Positions 1 through 8,449 of a stretch of DNA of 8,773 bases are shown piece by piece; within the stretch, counting starts at the first letter, position 1; each line of letters starts with the position of its first letter. Position numbers and translations under genes: made by a program. The notes beneath the pieces were generated by a model that saw only the letters and a program-made list of their open reading frames with translations, did no database searches and had not been told where the DNA came from. This stretch comes from Candidatus Alcyoniella australis. Lineage in GTDB: Bacteria > Lernaellota > Lernaellaia > JAVCCG01 > Alcyoniellaceae. The stretch spans positions 1-8,773 of the forward strand of contig JAVCCG010000100.1 of assembly GCA_030765605.1 (NCBI GenBank), given 5' to 3'.

Positions 1-774
1 ATTGCTGACAAACAGATTGTTGTTGCTGTTGACAAAATGGCTACCGTCCTTGTATCCCAAATCAAGCGTGTTGTTTTGAATGGTATTGTTATTGGAGGAG
101 TCCAACCAGATAGCGTTACAGCCCTTGTCATTTTCTGAAAAAATGCTGTTGTTGGAAATCAGATTTCCGCTTCCACCGAAGAGCACAATACTTGATTCAA
201 TAATGCCGTCTCGCTTATTAACTATTTGATTATCAGTGATTGAGCAACCCATGCAATCACGTAAAATAATTCCGTTGTTGAAAGTTCCCTCGAAATATGA
301 ATTCACGATTGACAAATTGCTGCTCGCTTTATTCTCCATTCCCAGATCAATATATGAATATATTATGTTTTCAACTCGAACATTCTCAATAATTACATTG
401 TCCAGTTTATTCCTGCTGTAGATACCAACGCCGAAATCCTCGATGGTAAGACCGGATAGTGATATGTTCGATACCGCTGCCTCCTCTTCATTCTTTTCGA
501 TGCCAATGGCGCAACGATCTTTTTTACTGTCGCCTACCAGCGTAACCCTATCGCCGGATATGTGTATATCCGAGTTTTCAATGACGATCGAACAATTGTC
601 TCCATTACCTATTTCATATCTTCCTGGGCAAAATATCATGCTTCGATTAACGATCATTCCGGCGAAAGGCGTGGAGCATGCTCTAATATCTAGCGGCAAT
701 CCATAAAATATTATCAATAGAAGAATAAGAGTTGTTGAAAACCCAAGGAAAAATATTTTCAAGTTTCTCTTCAT
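1..774 (-). CDS. Right-handed beta-helix (NosD-like) exported protein, N-terminal part, C-terminus outside the window
   Basis: The frame is open from an ATG at 774 to the window edge (258 codons, no stop), so the gene is partial. A hydrophobic segment at residues ~5-25 after MKRN suggests a signal peptide or anchor. From ~residue 48 there is a CPGRY segment, then successive short strands rich in Asn, Ile, Ser and Gly (ISLSGLTIEDFGVGIYS, VIIENVRVENII, ITDNQIVNKRDGI, NLISNNSIFSEN, NNNTIQNNTLD). These are the repeating coils of parallel beta-helix/NosD-type proteins. Such folds occur in polysaccharide lyases, surface adhesins and the NosD copper-insertion protein; the substrate here cannot be told. 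An AGGTG ribosome site lies 4 nt before the ATG. Base composition is much more AT-rich than every other gene here, suggesting different ancestry. The fold is fairly sure, the function unknown. Confidence 0.82.
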   Translation of the reverse strand, partial: MKRNLKIFFLGFSTTLILLLIIFYGLPLDIRACSTPFAGMIVNRSMIFCPGRYEIGNGDNCSIVIENSDIHISGDRVTLVGDSKKDRCAIGIEKNEEEAAVSNISLSGLTIEDFGVGIYSRNKLDNVIIENVRVENIIYSYIDLGMENKASSNLSIVNSYFEGTFNNGIILRDCMGCSITDNQIVNKRDGIIESSIVLFGGSGNLISNNSIFSENDKGCNAIWLDSSNNNTIQNNTLDLGYKDGSHFVNSNNNLFVSN

Positions 775-2355: not shown

Positions 2356-2805
2356 CTACTTCAAGTCCACCGCTTGTTTGCAGTTGCGGCAGCGCTGGGC
2401 GCCGCGGAACAGGGCTGCGCCGCATTGGGGGCAGGAATAGCGGGCAATCTCGGCAGCTACCCAGGCCTCGGTCCCCAGCTCGCGCCGTTGGGGAACCGAG
2501 CGCAGCATCACCTTTCTGCCCTCCTCGATCGGGAAATTCTCAATGTGTTCGCAGGGGAACTCGTCGCACTGATGGCAGCCCTCGATTTCGCGTTGCGCAG
2601 CGCAGGCTTTGATCTTGCAGACTTGGCAGAACTCGCACACATCGTCGGACAGGCATCCTTCACAGTGAATCTGCTCGGGCTTGAGGCCGTAGAGATCAGC
2701 TAGAACCTGCTTGAACTTCTCGTTGCGGTCGCGATGGGCGATCATGATCGAGCACACTCCGCAATACAGTCCGCAGGGCGCCAGCAGTTGGCGATTGATC
2801 TCCAT
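2356..2805 (-). CDS. DUF3795 family cysteine-rich protein with C-terminal zinc ribbon
   Basis: The 149-residue product opens with LLAPCGLYCGVCSI, the hallmark of DUF3795, a family of uncharacterised small Cys-rich proteins common in anaerobic bacteria and archaea. Sixteen cysteines are present: C11, C15 and C18; a cluster at 48, 51, 57, 60, 63 and 68; C77, C80 and C85; then a separate CPQCG...CRNC ribbon (125, 128, 139, 142). The pattern implies metal binding (Zn or Fe-S), and there is no signal peptide, so it should be cytoplasmic. The ATG at 2805 is 3 nt past the stop of the upstream membrane/propeller gene, and its GGAGG site lies within that gene's last codons, so translation is probably coupled. 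It appears to be the last gene of the operon. No reaction can be assigned. The family call is strong; metal binding is inference. Confidence 0.88.
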   Translation of the reverse strand: MEINRQLLAPCGLYCGVCSIMIAHRDRNEKFKQVLADLYGLKPEQIHCEGCLSDDVCEFCQVCKIKACAAQREIEGCHQCDEFPCEHIENFPIEEGRKVMLRSVPQRRELGTEAWVAAEIARYSCPQCGAALFRGAQRCRNCKQAVDLK

Positions 2806-2808
2806 TTC

Positions 2809-4491
2809 TTATTCCTCCAGGTACCAGGGTGGGCCTTCACATTGGCCGTCAAAGATGTATTGGGCCGAGCTGATTGGTAGATTGGACATCATCAGCCGCC
2901 GTCCATAACGGCTTGCGCTAAATACCGCCGCCAGTCGAAACAAAGCATAGAAAGGGTCCGCCCGTTTAAATGTCGCGCCTAAAGTATCGACCTCGATTGA
3001 TGCGGGATCAAGCTTGTACAGCCCGTGAAATCCCGTTGTGAAATAGATCCGGTCGTTCCGCGCATCGAGCGTGAGCCAGCGCACCCAGGGCGGGACGTTG
3101 AGGCGGGCGATCAGGGCCAGGTTCTCCAGATCGCGCACCTCCATCAACGGAGACAGGCCGAAGACGAGCAACCGGTCTCGCGCCGGGTCGATCAGCAGCG
3201 CGCGTGCTCCAGGCATGGCCTGGATCTCGGCGATCGGCTCGAAGCGTTCCAGGTCGAGCACCAGCACCCTGGCCAGGTAGGGCTGGGAGATAAACAGCCG
3301 GTCCCGCTTGCTGTCCAGCGCCAGCTTTTCCGACCAGCTGCCCAGCACCAGGCTGCGCGTGACCTCGAGCGACTCGAGGTTCAGCGCGACGAGCTCGCCG
3401 TTGATCGTGGAATAGAGCAGCTCGTCGCGACTCGGATCAAAGGCCAGGTCGCCCGGCGGACCGCTTATATATGCGCGCACCGCACGGCCCGAATCGCAAA
3501 AGACCCGCAGTCCGTCCACGCACACTGAGCACAAAAGGCCCCTTTGCTTCTGCCAATAAGTACGGCACAGCCCGCCGCTGCGATCGGGTCCCTCGGTGAA
3601 CGGGATCGTCGCCAAGCCGCGCATCTGGTCCAGGTTGCCAATCAGCATGCGCTGCCGGAAACCATCGGCATAGATTATTTTGCGTTGCGATCCCGCGATG
3701 GCCACGGCCTGCACTTCCCCGAGAGCATCATCGAGCTTCAACTTGCCCAGCAGCGAACCATCGTGCTCGGCGATTTTTAAAATCGCGTTATTGTTTGAGT
3801 CGACCACCAACAGGTCGCCGTCCAACGGATCGACCGTTGTTTGATAGAAGAAGCCTGGTAAAAGAAGATTTGCGGAATGATCATACCGGCCGATGCTGTT
3901 TGCCGGCAACGGATCCCACAGCCACGGAAACAGGCAACAGCCGGCCAGCAGTGCCAGAAGATAGGCGCGCATTATGGCCGTGAGCCAGCGGGGGACCGTA
4001 GTGTCGCGGGAGATCAAGATCCAGGTTGGCAGCGGAAACAACAGATCCGCCAAGGGAGGTGAGCAGCGCAACAGCCGCTCCAGCCTGCGTTGCGGCCGGC
4101 CGACCCAAATCCACCCCGCGCCGGCAAGGTTGAGCGCGATGCAGATTCCCGACGCAGCCGACCACGGTTGGATCCCCACATAGCGATAGACGAACAGCGG
4201 AGCGCAGGCCAGAGCTGCGCCCAGTAGCGGAGCCAGCGCCAGACACGCCGCTCCGAGAAGTGGCGTCTGACGCCGCGTGCTCGGTGCGAGGAGCACCAGC
4301 AGGCAGACCGGGAGCATGGCGTAAAACAACAGGCGGAACAGCTCCACCTGGCAGACGATATCGAGCATCGCCTCATAGCTTTGCACCCTGGACAGCGCCG
4401 CCTGGACGAACAGCAGCATGATGATCAAGGCTGCGATCGATCGGACTGACCAGCGAATTGCGCTTGACGCGTACGAAGGCTGTTTAGCCAT
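2809..4491 (-). CDS. Membrane protein with C-terminal beta-propeller, paralogue A
   Basis: I do not recognise a named family. The N-terminal third (560 residues in all) has about six hydrophobic segments: ~15-34, 50-70, 77-100, 106-130, 147-161 and 172-193. From ~210 to ~505 come repeating propeller-like strands (GDLLVVDS, KLALDSKRDRLFIS, RVLVLDLERFEPI, LLIDPARDRLLVFG), as in YVTN/NHL-type propellers. It aligns along its whole length with the gene upstream: MLDIVCQ, CRTYW (309-313), GPPGDL, GLSPLMEVRDLE, DPFYALF and a C-terminal FDGQCEGPPW. Cysteines 309, 324, 332 and 551 are shared. The ATG at 4491 is chosen because it forms a TGATG overlap with the upstream stop; a TTG 45 nt earlier would give a 46-nt overlap and is less likely. 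A role in envelope sensing or protein binding is conceivable, but nothing shows it. Confidence 0.82.
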   Translation of the reverse strand: MAKQPSYASSAIRWSVRSIAALIIMLLFVQAALSRVQSYEAMLDIVCQVELFRLLFYAMLPVCLLVLLAPSTRRQTPLLGAACLALAPLLGAALACAPLFVYRYVGIQPWSAASGICIALNLAGAGWIWVGRPQRRLERLLRCSPPLADLLFPLPTWILISRDTTVPRWLTAIMRAYLLALLAGCCLFPWLWDPLPANSIGRYDHSANLLLPGFFYQTTVDPLDGDLLVVDSNNNAILKIAEHDGSLLGKLKLDDALGEVQAVAIAGSQRKIIYADGFRQRMLIGNLDQMRGLATIPFTEGPDRSGGLCRTYWQKQRGLLCSVCVDGLRVFCDSGRAVRAYISGPPGDLAFDPSRDELLYSTINGELVALNLESLEVTRSLVLGSWSEKLALDSKRDRLFISQPYLARVLVLDLERFEPIAEIQAMPGARALLIDPARDRLLVFGLSPLMEVRDLENLALIARLNVPPWVRWLTLDARNDRIYFTTGFHGLYKLDPASIEVDTLGATFKRADPFYALFRLAAVFSASRYGRRLMMSNLPISSAQYIFDGQCEGPPWYLEE

Positions 4492-6224
4492 CAATTGTTG
4501 CTGCCGGATGCGGGGCTGGTTGTACCCTGGGTCCAATCCCCCGATCCGCAGGGCTGGCCGCCGAAGCTTTCAGCGGGCTGCATCGCTTGGCTCTTACCTC
4601 CCAGCGGCATTTCCAAGGCGCGCAGGATCGGCAGGTTGAGCCGAGCTGTCAGCAGGTAGAATGGGTCCAGACGCTGGAGGAGCCGGGCGCCACTGGAGAT
4701 CTGCCCCAGTTGCTTTAAATCAAGCTCCCAGAGGCCATGGGTTTTGGATGTCAGATAGGCCACATCGCGCTGCTCGTCGAACTCGATCCAACGACCGTAG
4801 GGCGGCGCCTTGATCCGCCTGATCAGCGAGAGATCTTGAAGCGAGCGGACCTCGATCAGCGGCGACAGGCCGGCCAACAGCAGCCATCCGTGATGCGGCT
4901 CAATCGCTACCAGCCGCACGCCGGGAAAGGCATAGAGCCATCTGATGGGCGTGAAGCTCTCGATGTCCAGCACCAGTACGCTGGAGAGCATCGGATAGGC
5001 CACGAACAGCCTGCCACTCCGGCTGTCCAGGGCCATGCGCTCGGGCGCAGCGCTGCCCCGGTTGAACTCGCGCAACGGGTGAAGGTCCGCGGGGGAGAGC
5101 GCCATCAGGGCTCTGTTCCACGCGGCTGTGTAAAACTCGCGGCGCTCGCTGTCGTAGAGCATATCGCCGGGCAGGCCCATGTATTGGGCCACCGGCCGTC
5201 GGCCGTCGGGGCACATCAGCAACAGGCCGCCCTCGCAGTTGGCATAGAGCAGATGGTCTTGCGCATGCCAATAGGTGCGGCAGGCGTCCATGTTCTGCGA
5301 AGACTCGACGCTCGCCGGATCTAAACCGCTGAAGGCGATCCGCCGACGCAGCTTCAGCGTGTCCGCGTCCAGTACCTGGGTTTGCATCCCCCCCGGATCA
5401 ACGAGGACGAGGCTCCGCGATTCCTGGTCCAGCGCCAGCGCGCGTATCGGTGCGACAATGTCGAGTGCGACCCGCTCGCGGCGCGAGCCGTCCAGAGGGT
5501 CGATGCGCTGGATCACTTGCAAGCTGCGGTCCACGACCAGCAGGTCGCGGCGTTGCGGATCGAGCAGAAACTGGTAATACCTGCCGCAGTCGAGCAGGCG
5601 CAACGGCGCGCTGAACTGCAACGGACTGGCGAAGTCCAGCGGATTTACCAGCCAGGGAAGCAACGGCGCCAACGCCAGTAGCACGGCGGGCAGAATGCGC
5701 GCTACGCTCAACGTCCGTCTGCCTCGCGTCTCACGGTAGATATAGGCGGACCAGACCAGGGCCGGGAAAAACAGGTCGCTCAGCGGCAGGCACGCGCGCA
5801 TCCACTTCCTGCTCCTGGGACCCCACTTTTCACCCAGGTGGAACCAACCCAGCCCGGTGAGGTTCACGGCGATCCAGACGGCGATGCCGATCTTCAGGCC
5901 ACCAATGTGGAGATCGGGACGGGTCGTTAGCGGAGCGATGCAGGTCAGCATGCCGGCCAAGGGCCCGGCGACCAGATAGACGGCCATTAGCGCAGCCCGC
6001 GGCCTGCTGCCCTCGATCCGTGACGGAAATAGCGTCACCAGCAGCAGCGTGGGAAAGGACGCATAGAACAGCGCGTGGAAGATGTCGATCTGACAGACCA
6101 GGTTGAGCATCAGATCGTTGTTGATAATCCAACGGCAGGTGTTGATCAGCTGCCAGAGCAGGAACGCCAGGACCAGACTCGCGCGTAGCGGATATATAAA
6201 TCCCTTTAGCACCGGGCTATACAC
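4491..6224 (-). CDS. Membrane protein with C-terminal beta-propeller, paralogue B
   Basis: This 577-residue protein is the tandem paralogue of the next gene. Hydrophobic segments lie at ~15-29, 47-67, 77-98, 110-129, 145-163 and 176-193. A propeller-like region runs from ~213 to ~510 (RDLLVVDRS, RMALDSRSGRLFVAY, SVLVLDIESFTPI, GLSPLIEVRSLQDLSLI). Landmarks shared with paralogue A are MLNLVCQID (39-47), CRTYW (315-319), C330, C338, GLPGDMLYD, LDPFYLL and a C-terminal FGGQPCGSGDW (554-564). After this the tail is Gly/Ser/Thr-rich. The start is taken as the GTG at 6224, because it gives the same lead length before the conserved MLNLVCQ as paralogue A. No good ribosome site is visible there, so the exact start is uncertain. 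It lies 57 nt after the carboxypeptidase stop and overlaps paralogue A by TGATG. Function unknown. Confidence 0.8.
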   Translation of the reverse strand: MYSPVLKGFIYPLRASLVLAFLLWQLINTCRWIINNDLMLNLVCQIDIFHALFYASFPTLLLVTLFPSRIEGSRPRAALMAVYLVAGPLAGMLTCIAPLTTRPDLHIGGLKIGIAVWIAVNLTGLGWFHLGEKWGPRSRKWMRACLPLSDLFFPALVWSAYIYRETRGRRTLSVARILPAVLLALAPLLPWLVNPLDFASPLQFSAPLRLLDCGRYYQFLLDPQRRDLLVVDRSLQVIQRIDPLDGSRRERVALDIVAPIRALALDQESRSLVLVDPGGMQTQVLDADTLKLRRRIAFSGLDPASVESSQNMDACRTYWHAQDHLLYANCEGGLLLMCPDGRRPVAQYMGLPGDMLYDSERREFYTAAWNRALMALSPADLHPLREFNRGSAAPERMALDSRSGRLFVAYPMLSSVLVLDIESFTPIRWLYAFPGVRLVAIEPHHGWLLLAGLSPLIEVRSLQDLSLIRRIKAPPYGRWIEFDEQRDVAYLTSKTHGLWELDLKQLGQISSGARLLQRLDPFYLLTARLNLPILRALEMPLGGKSQAMQPAESFGGQPCGSGDWTQGTTSPASGSNN

Positions 6225-6281: not shown

Positions 6282-7535
6282 TCAGCGGATCATCCCCGCG
6301 TTGTATTCGGACCAGGAGCGGGCCACGCCCTGCATGCCGTAGGGCAAGTCACCGCTCTTGCCCGGATCGTCGCTTTGCCAGATCAGGTAGAGCATGCCGT
6401 TGAGGTTCTTGGCCTGCACCTCGGGGATCTGGCTGCCGGGAAGATAGAAGTCGCCGCCGAACTGGACCGGGTCGAGTTCCACGGTAAAACAGATTCGGCC
6501 CTGGTCGCCGTAGGCCCAGTCGCAGGTGTCGCCCGAAGTTATGTAGAGATCCGAACTCTGTTGGGGCGTGTACCCGGTGTAGGAGGCGTACTGCGTGCCC
6601 AGGGTCACGTGGTTGGTATGATCAGGCTCGGGCATTGCCGAATAGGTGTAGCCCCAGGGCCAGATCACCAGCTTGGAGAAGTTGTGAAAGCTGACGATGA
6701 TCTCGATCGAGGGATTGTCCACGATCAGGTCGCGGTAGGCCGCGCTCTCGGGCTCGGAGAACGCCGAGGGGCCGCGGTAGGTATCGGAACTCATGGTGCC
6801 CGACGAGCCCGAGCCGCCCCACATGTAGCCGTAGTTGCGGTTGAGGTCCACGCCCTCGTAAGAGCCTTCGTTGTCGCGGCGGTTCTTGCGCCAATAGTGA
6901 TAGCTGCCGCCGGAGATGTCGTAGACCACGCCGTCGGGATTGAGCATCGGCGTAACCCAGATCTCGTGGGTCTGCACCAGGTTGGTGGTCGAGTACAGGT
7001 AGTCGTAGGTGTCGCCCATGTACTCTAAAAACCCCAGCGGCACCTCAAGGCTGATGTGCTCGCGCGCGTGGTGTTGGCCCACAAAGCTCAGTCCGGGCTC
7101 ACTGGCGGATTCGTCCTGGTCCGGGTTGTCGCTGAGCTTGATTGTCCACAGCTCGCGCGATTCCCAGCTCTGGCCGATGGAGGAGAGCAGCATCACGTCC
7201 GGGTGCGCGTCGGCCAACGTGTTGAGCACCGCGACCATACCGTCGAAATAGCGGTAGGCCGGGTCCACCGCCACGTCGAGCTGCGGCAGCGGCTGCGCAA
7301 AGACCGTGTAGCCCAGGTCCTGCAACAGCGCCAGGTCATAGTCTCTGCCCAGCACCAGTACCGACTCGTCGAGCACCTGGACGATGTCCAGGCCCAGGTC
7401 CGCGATGGCGCTACGCTCGTACTTGTCCATCGCCGGGATCTCGATCAACAGCGCATTATCGTCGAACGCCTGCGCCGGAATCACCGGCAGCAGCAGCGCG
7501 GCCGCCAAAATAGTTAAAATCGCCGCGGCCCTCAT
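6282..7535 (-). CDS. Secreted M14-family zinc carboxypeptidase
   Basis: This removes C-terminal residues from peptides outside the cytoplasm. Residues 1-23 (MRAAAILTILAAALLLPVIPAQA) are a signal peptide, probably cut after AQA. Residues ~24-90 form a short pro-region and the catalytic domain runs from ~92 to ~390. Active-site landmarks: HARE (H156, E159) and H284 in SFHNF as zinc ligands; N232-R233 in GVDLNRNY binding the substrate carboxylate; FSEPES (259-264); Y331, the equivalent of Tyr248 in carboxypeptidase A; and E353 in FTVELDP as general base. All are present, so the enzyme should be active. The S1' pocket has Asp at 336 and Cys at 338, nearer to carboxypeptidase T than A. The ATG at 7535 has GGAGG six nt upstream and overlaps the lipoprotein stop by ATGA. 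It lacks the C-terminal beta domains many secreted relatives carry; the neighbouring lipoprotein has similar ones. Confidence 0.95.
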   Translation of the reverse strand: MRAAAILTILAAALLLPVIPAQAFDDNALLIEIPAMDKYERSAIADLGLDIVQVLDESVLVLGRDYDLALLQDLGYTVFAQPLPQLDVAVDPAYRYFDGMVAVLNTLADAHPDVMLLSSIGQSWESRELWTIKLSDNPDQDESASEPGLSFVGQHHAREHISLEVPLGFLEYMGDTYDYLYSTTNLVQTHEIWVTPMLNPDGVVYDISGGSYHYWRKNRRDNEGSYEGVDLNRNYGYMWGGSGSSGTMSSDTYRGPSAFSEPESAAYRDLIVDNPSIEIIVSFHNFSKLVIWPWGYTYSAMPEPDHTNHVTLGTQYASYTGYTPQQSSDLYITSGDTCDWAYGDQGRICFTVELDPVQFGGDFYLPGSQIPEVQAKNLNGMLYLIWQSDDPGKSGDLPYGMQGVARSWSEYNAGMIR

Positions 7536-8449
7536 TTGTCACCTCCGGGGATCATCACGATCGCGCGAATCATCAGGTTGTTGGCAAACGGGGTCGAGCC
7601 CAGCGGCGTATAGGTCGGTCCCGAGCGGCCGTACCAGGCGGAGCCCGCGAAACCCGAGGTGTCCAGACCGACAAACGGCGTCTTGCCGTCGGCCGAGGTC
7701 ACGCCGAGGATCAGGTTGCCCGAGTCGACCTGCATGTCGGCGGCCGTAACGTCGATATCCAGCCAGGCATCGACGGACTGCACTGCCTGCGGCTCGGAAA
7801 CAAACGTCGGCTCGCCGACCGGACCGGCTGCCGAGGGATCGGCGAACAGCACGCCGGAGACCGCCACTCCCGCGTCGTCTGGGTTGACGTGGACTTTGAT
7901 CCGCACCCGCGCGGGCTTGACCGGGTAGATCGGCATGGCCATACCCACCAGCAGGCTGTCGCCCGCGGCAATGGCGCGCAGGCCGTCCTCGGCCGATCCG
8001 TCGTCGAGCAGCACTTCCACCGCGCCCAATACGTTAAAGGTGTAGTTCTCGGTCTGGCTGGACTGGTCGTGATCGTCACTGGCCGAAATCCGATAGCTGA
8101 CATTGGCTCCGGCCGGCTGATCAGGGATCGCGCCCACGAACAGGCCCTCGCCGCGATCCTCCATTGCCAGCGTGGTCTCGGCGCTGCCGGAGATCGAGTA
8201 GACAACTGCGGCCGAGGCCACCGCGCTGTTGTCAATGATTGTCGCCCGGATGTAATAGACGCCGAAGCCCGCGGGCTGGTCGTTCAGCGGAGTATGGTCG
8301 ATGCTCGGCGGATCGCCCGGGCCGGTGTCGTCGTCGTCGTCACCGCCGGTATCGTCGTCGTCATCGTCGCCGGAGCCCGCGCAACCCACAACCAACATCA
8401 GGGCCGTGAGCAGCAGGAGCATCAACAACAGGTACTTGTTGGAAAACAT
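7532..8449 (-). CDS. Lipoprotein with Asp-rich linker and two beta-sandwich domains
   Basis: The 305-residue product has a lipoprotein signal: hydrophobic residues 6-20 and lipobox VVGC with the acylated C23. An Asp-rich spacer follows (D28-33, TGG, D37-41, TGPGDPP), which would hold the rest away from the membrane. Residues ~48-141 resemble an Ig/fibronectin-like domain seen beside secreted proteases (VVYSISGSAETTLAMEDRG, PAGANVSYRISASDDH). Residues ~145-300 resemble the all-beta C-terminal domain of secreted peptidases (LLDDGSAEDG, PARVRIKVHVNP, GLDTSGFAG, NNLMIRAIV). No catalytic motif is visible. The ATG at 8449 has GGAGG 4 nt upstream. The stop overlaps the carboxypeptidase start (ATGA), so the two are probably translated together, and the lipoprotein may tether or help the protease. 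That partnership is inference, and the domain calls rest on pattern recognition. Confidence 0.85.
   Translation of the reverse strand: MFSNKYLLLMLLLLTALMLVVGCAGSGDDDDDDTGGDDDDDTGPGDPPSIDHTPLNDQPAGFGVYYIRATIIDNSAVASAAVVYSISGSAETTLAMEDRGEGLFVGAIPDQPAGANVSYRISASDDHDQSSQTENYTFNVLGAVEVLLDDGSAEDGLRAIAAGDSLLVGMAMPIYPVKPARVRIKVHVNPDDAGVAVSGVLFADPSAAGPVGEPTFVSEPQAVQSVDAWLDIDVTAADMQVDSGNLILGVTSADGKTPFVGLDTSGFAGSAWYGRSGPTYTPLGSTPFANNLMIRAIVMIPGGDK
8327..8368. repeat. GAC/GAT codon repeat encoding the Asp-rich linker
   Basis: Two runs of Asp codons (six and five) separated by TGG form a trinucleotide repeat inside the lipoprotein gene. In-frame slippage could change linker length without breaking the gene. 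Aspartate-rich spacers after a lipobox are common in some deltaproteobacterial and related lineages. Confidence 0.7.

Follow-up and report, generated by a model that had tools for sequence, protein, structure and literature searches.

A diversified and apparently phylum-restricted family of YncE-like propeller proteins with a membrane domain in Candidatus Lernaellota

Introduction

The closest solved relative of the proteins described here is YncE of Escherichia coli (PDB 3vgz and 7seu; PF21783; NF052280), a seven-bladed propeller, as is the fold predicted for them. A second point of reference comes from mycobacteria, where the seven-bladed propeller MSMEG_5308 (Rv1057; NF048007) stabilizes the MmpL3/TtfA complex (PMC6593404). 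MSMEG_5308 is therefore a seven-bladed propeller at a membrane complex, and it serves us as an analogy, not as a claim of family membership. Our own subject is a pair of neighboring genes from Candidatus Alcyoniella australis, found in what we call the window, the whole 8,773-nucleotide stretch of DNA that was analyzed. The organism belongs to GTDB phylum FEN-1099, also known as Ca. Lernaellota or Podoxiota (PMC11382960), a phylum known here from metagenome-assembled genomes only. A first-pass annotation, made from the letters of the window, had singled out the two proteins as the best candidate for an undescribed family. Here we follow that suggestion through their genes, predicted structure, conserved residues, cysteines, and relatives.

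Two overlapping genes and their surroundings

Paralogue A (P0002) runs directly into paralogue B (P0001). On the minus strand, P0002 ends AAC AAT TGA and P0001 begins ATG GCT AAA, the two sharing the TGATG at 4493–4489. A one-base overlap of stop and start is the usual mark of translational coupling. Because of this overlap, ATG 4491 is the most likely start of P0001, giving the N terminus MAKQPSYASS, rather than the TTG chosen mechanically (Table 1). The cysteine numbers first given for P0001 (309/324/332) agree with the ATG start.

Table 1. Features of the window, with positions numbered from its first letter
Feature	Position	Strand	Remarks
Paralogue A (P0002)	4491..6224	minus	577 aa from GTG
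Paralogue A domains			residues 1–205 membrane; 206–502 seven-bladed propeller; 503–577 C-terminal helices and tail
Paralogue B (P0001)	2809..4491	minus	560 aa from the likely ATG 4491
Mechanical ORF of paralogue B	2809–4536	minus	TTG at 4536; 575 aa
Paralogue A membrane domain	5625..6224	minus	five long helices and short helix 154–165 (D150, P154, W158 conserved)
Paralogue B membrane domain	3895..4491	minus	
Paralogue A C315 to C330	5235..5282	minus	blade 3, ends of one β hairpin; putative disulfide
Paralogue A C338	5211..5213	minus	directly after strand c of blade 3; tail C559 the putative partner
Paralogue A tail motif C559-x4-W564	4533..4550	minus	
Paralogue A conserved blade 5–7 face	4788..4928	minus	residues 433–479
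DUF3795 protein gene	2356..2805	minus	starts 3 bp past paralogue B
M14 carboxypeptidase gene	6282..7535	minus	57 bp upstream of paralogue A
Poly-Asp-linker lipoprotein gene	7532..8449	minus	overlaps M14 gene start

The genes for the lipoprotein, the M14 carboxypeptidase, the two paralogues, and the DUF3795 protein are so closely spaced or overlapping that they likely form one five-gene unit, and the DUF3795 gene probably shares a transcription unit with paralogue B. When other loci were compared, neither the DUF3795 gene nor the M14 gene proved to be a conserved partner of the family.

Near the start of the contig (window 1–1130), a comM/yifB-like gene is cut at about 1126, and the GC there drops from about 0.65 to 0.39. 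The absent C-terminal part of the gene begins near C128:2042 (locus L108, G000:C128, 1900–2530), and both broken ends bear similar inverted letters, CCCCACCGT and ACGGTGGGA. It looks as if comM had been interrupted by a mobile element; comM is a known site for AbaR islands in Acinetobacter. The low-GC stretch carries a β-helix (NosD-like) gene (window 1–774) with a hydrophobic N terminus, which runs past the contig end.

An old and diverged family

The first reading of P0001 and P0002 as tandem, diverged paralogues holds (36% identity over 490 aa, E = 5e-75, BLASTP), yet the family goes well beyond this pair. A window protein searched against its own genome, 4.29 Mb in size, gave 24 matches, and a 29-member profile sorted the family there into 19 full-length copies, one copy without its N terminus, and fragments. 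All told, the family occupies about 33 kb (0.8%) of the 4.3 Mb genome. Contig C34 has three copies in tandem and contig C66 three across 11.5 kb; clusters of three are present also in two related genomes (G006 and G001). P0002 is 21 to 38% identical to other members, and the family tree comes close to a star, its end branches having a median length of 0.93 changes per site. These identities, together with the long end branches, lead us to regard the copies as old. The tree leaves the order of the copies open, as it does 15 of its 30 inner branches, and in it the two window genes are not sisters.

Two members call for a remark. One (L007, G000:C93:26804-28237) is missing its first ~80 to 100 residues, and its match spans one in-frame stop; it may be a copy in decay, or the assembly may be wrong at this place. 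In another (L019), an open frame of 1011 aa raised the idea of a fusion between the paralogue and its upstream gene. That idea was dropped, the upstream gene being separate and in another frame, with an overlapping stop and ATG.

Predicted structure

P0002 was predicted with AlphaFold2 from a 33-row alignment, giving a model with a mean pLDDT of 90.6 and a pTM of 0.90. Residues 208 to 502 form 28 strands, which make seven four-stranded blades (7 × 4) when the first strand is counted as completing the last blade. The β-propeller half suspected from the letters is thus borne out in the model, as a seven-bladed, YncE-like one. When the model was compared with known structures by VIA-align, E. coli YncE was the top chain (Z 27.9 over 290 residues, 2.8 A, 15% identity), with WD40 proteins level with it or just behind, near-ties that are expected for any seven-bladed propeller. 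A sequence profile run against the PDB also found its best relative in YncE (2.2e-15). We are all but sure of the paralogy and of the predicted propeller fold, both of which were computed here.

The membrane half is another matter. Where six helices had been counted, the model gives five of membrane length (4–33, 46–65, 76–101, 109–130, and 170–193) and a short, broken one at 148–165. Folded alone, the N-terminal 200 residues reproduce these helices (pLDDT 90.4), with five of 19 to 30 residues, short ones at 36–44 and 136–144, and the broken one again at 148–165. The latter's second part, helix 154–165, is 12 residues long, separated from 148–152, and adjoins D150, P154, and W158, which are conserved along with R14, N121, and P195 elsewhere in the domain. 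As modeled, the 148–165 helix is probably re-entrant. The isolated domain was compared with the PDB and with viral models and found no convincing match in either (Foldseek best E 0.099; VIA best Z 6.6), a result that speaks neither for nor against a new fold.

Sidedness of the propeller

Unless the short helix spans the membrane, the propeller must lie on the side opposite the N terminus. The positive charges of the loops agree with this. Their mean content of lysine and arginine is 3.0 (loop 2–3), 3.8 (4–5), and 2.9 (5–6), against 1.5 (1–2) and 1.2 (3–4). Taken member by member (n = 28), loop 5–6 is inside-like in 16, outside-like in 7, and tied in 5, a moderate positive-inside signal. The loop pattern supports, short of proof, a propeller outside the cytoplasm. 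From the five long helices and the loop charges, we infer with good confidence that the propeller is extracytoplasmic, the better-supported topology.

The competing arrangement is a six-span protein with a cytoplasmic propeller and reduced cysteines, a WD40-like scaffold working inside the cell. Hydropathy alone would allow it, with anything from three to seven hydrophobic segments in each full-length protein, in several of them one near 141–173, but the model breaks helix 154–165 off from 148–152 and makes it only 12 residues long. The loop that follows the helix is rich in lysine and arginine, and the cysteines, which are gained and lost in pairs, suit an oxidizing side. We consider a cytoplasmic propeller unlikely.

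A conserved face and a possible scaffold

The signature of the whole family is the face made by blades 5 to 7 (FPGVR, GfSPxxExR, and APPWxRW). In paralogue A, the motifs read F-P-G-V-R437, G452-x-x-P455-x-x-E458-x-R460, R470, and A473-P-P-[W/Y]476-x-R478-W, of which R478 is invariant (33/33 members). Computed per column, conservation is 0.65 in d5-a6 (FPGVR), 0.62 in d6-a7 (APPWxR), 0.61 in b6-c6 (GfSPxxE), and 0.49 in b5-c5, with the final b7-c7 the exception (0.27); the equivalent loops of blades 1 to 4 on the same "top" face, a side assigned by strand order and not by coordinates, score 0.19 to 0.32.

How might such a protein work? We propose that each carries a YncE-like propeller of seven blades that is anchored in the inner membrane and lies outside the cytoplasm. 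Its N terminus would be cytoplasmic, and five transmembrane helices plus the short re-entrant helix would put the propeller on the outer side, where it may act as a non-enzymatic binding scaffold. The half-face of blades 5 to 7 (R437/E458/[W/Y]476/R478), constant in all copies, would make contact with a partner shared by the family or with the membrane domain of the same protein, and the variable loops of blades 1 to 4 would give every paralogue a partner of its own. On the whole, the best explanation we can offer, with about an even chance of being right, is a family of interaction propellers that are anchored in the membrane, lie outside the cytoplasm, and have diversified. The scaffold role in particular, which we infer from this pattern, could as easily be wrong as right.

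Listing the neighborhoods of homologues, a check proposed with the first-pass annotation, brought no conserved partner to light: no neighbor family recurs across 13 loci of the same genome and six of related genomes. Since no partner gene is conserved, genomic context lends the scaffold role no support. The neighbors are instead a miscellany. GDSL lipase genes adjoin two copies, a signal peptidase gene precedes one, and another copy comes after a gene whose multi-span membrane product matches nothing in Pfam; genes for DNA polymerase X, a melibiase-like lipoprotein, and a citrate transporter are also among the neighbors. Genes for poly-Asp lipoproteins lie near many copies. Their poly-aspartate stretch after the lipobox has 900 overlapping GAY x6 matches genome-wide against 3 for the reversed pattern, and they occur in related genomes too. 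We claim no link between these lipoproteins and the propellers, because such lipoproteins are everywhere in the genome. At one locus (L058, 8457–12834), a paralogue and the end of an MMPL transporter gene share a few bases. It is the sole paralogue adjoining an MMPL gene, an arrangement that recalls the propeller stabilizing MmpL3 in mycobacteria.

The same observations can be read as the marks of ligand sensors or receptors, in which the variable half of the propeller would bind a small molecule or peptide specific to each paralogue and the membrane domain would relay the signal. Such a role fits the large number of old, diverged copies, whose core is constant and whose loops vary, and also the polar N121 and D150 and the W158 conserved inside the membrane domain; against it, the proteins have no cytoplasmic output domain, and the loci show no conserved neighboring kinase, regulator, or transporter. 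We think sensing a rather doubtful reading. A bolder version, with some 20 membrane-embedded propeller receptors per genome, specific to the phylum, has a new-fold membrane domain contacting the conserved face through the re-entrant helix and coupling binding outside to an event in the membrane. It is less likely still.

Cysteine pairs

Within the interaction propellers we favor, the cysteines would have a supporting part. The annotated CRTYW motif with cysteines at +15 and +23 is present in both window proteins (C315/C330/C338 in P0002; C309/C324/C332 in P0001, counted from its ATG). The C-terminal F-x-G-Q-(P)-C-x4-W motif fared less evenly, for C-x4-W is found in both window proteins and in 10/10 members with the tail cysteine, but F-x-G-Q is not conserved. 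The signature is likewise fixed in the subgroup of the window genes and not across the family, where homologues lacking the cysteines and the C-terminal motif do exist. All four cysteines are kept by 8 of 33 aligned members (six in the same genome and one each in G004 and G002).

Their co-occurrence is what interests us. C338 and the tail C559 are both present in 10/33 members and both absent from 23/33, and are never split. L007 and L011 have C338/C559 without C315/C330; L008 has the reverse. C330 occurs without C315 in five of the 33. Fisher tests, with relatedness uncorrected, give 1e-8 for the co-occurrence of the third and fourth cysteines and 5e-5 for the first and second. In the model, strands 315–320 and 325–330 form a hairpin, which places C315 opposite C330. 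Because the cysteines are lost as pairs, we favor two structural disulfides over one four-cysteine metal site, and in the subgroup of the window genes C315–C330 and C338–C559 are quite probably the bonds. The first would span the blade 3 hairpin and the second would fasten the C-terminal tail, together stiffening the propeller. An oxidizing periplasm is not assured, since in this genome we find DsbA-like thioredoxin folds and no recognizable DsbB or VKOR.

The early suggestion of structural or redox pairing survives in its structural half, given the paired behavior, and not in its redox half. A metal-binding or redox site serving as the functional center, which the retention of all four cysteines by eight members of three genera might favor, is very improbable given loss in pairs instead of as an all-or-none set, a tail cysteine missing from most of the 33 members, and no CxxC among positions 315, 330, 338, and 559.

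Distribution and family status

How far does the family reach? Of 386 genomes, the membrane-domain profile (A8) matches 6, every one of them in the class of the window genome; by phylum, that is six of the seven FEN-1099 genomes and none of about 380 others. The full profile matches all seven, one of them (G003) through the propeller only. Searched against genome contigs, alignment A6 finds matches confined to the fen_1099 genome and alignment A4 finds none; plasmid sequences searched for the family also gave no match. Both window proteins match the membrane and propeller profiles over one ORF, the combination that marks the phylum family. Their scores (618 and 562 bits for the full profile, 198 and 162 for the membrane profile) are high by construction, both proteins being rows of both profiles; the profiles have no bearing on how the two score in BLAST against other copies.

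No named family in Pfam or NCBIfam covers the full-length window proteins. The first-pass view that the architecture fits no named family therefore stands for the whole protein and not for the propeller half, with YncE so near, and the forecast of an undescribed family has come true. This is a real family without an earlier description; it builds on a known propeller and seems to be restricted to the phylum, and its membrane domain is, as far as tested, specific to FEN-1099. An unnamed family is now defined, and its membrane domain could be placed by none of the searches run here.

Comparison with known systems

The window proteins have relatives of a looser kind. Four genes from other phyla (L087, L088, and L089 in G262; L090 in G125) encode a multi-TM N-terminal half and a C-terminal YncE-like propeller, and none of their products scores above cut-off for any Pfam or NCBIfam family. 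A loose search finds further FEN-1099 genes that also join a hydrophobic N-terminal half to a C-terminal propeller. The multi-TM and propeller architecture is thus not unique to FEN-1099, being found in G262 and G125. What these relatives share with the family is the architecture and the conserved arginines, and equivalents of D420, R437, and G497 are present in at least 90% of rows. They differ in their membrane parts, which have no significant match to the family profile, and in lacking the cysteine signature.

Neither window protein matches the MSMEG_5308/Rv1057 profile NF048007 at E<=1, and one of the looser FEN-1099 relatives (L092) matches it at 1.2e-9, far below the cut-off. The account of MSMEG_5308 used here describes no membrane domain (PMC6593404), unlike that of the window proteins. 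YncE is closer, if not by its own profiles: P0001 scores 29.6 bits with NF052280 against a 400-bit cut-off, P0002 has no score, and PF21783 matches neither at E<=1. The R437/E458/R478 motifs were not seen in the stretches of YncE compared by eye. That face offers a testable site for membrane-anchored YncE-like propellers, and the keeping of cysteines in pairs a testable rule. YncE is the soluble propeller only; the window proteins add to it a membrane domain of 200 residues.
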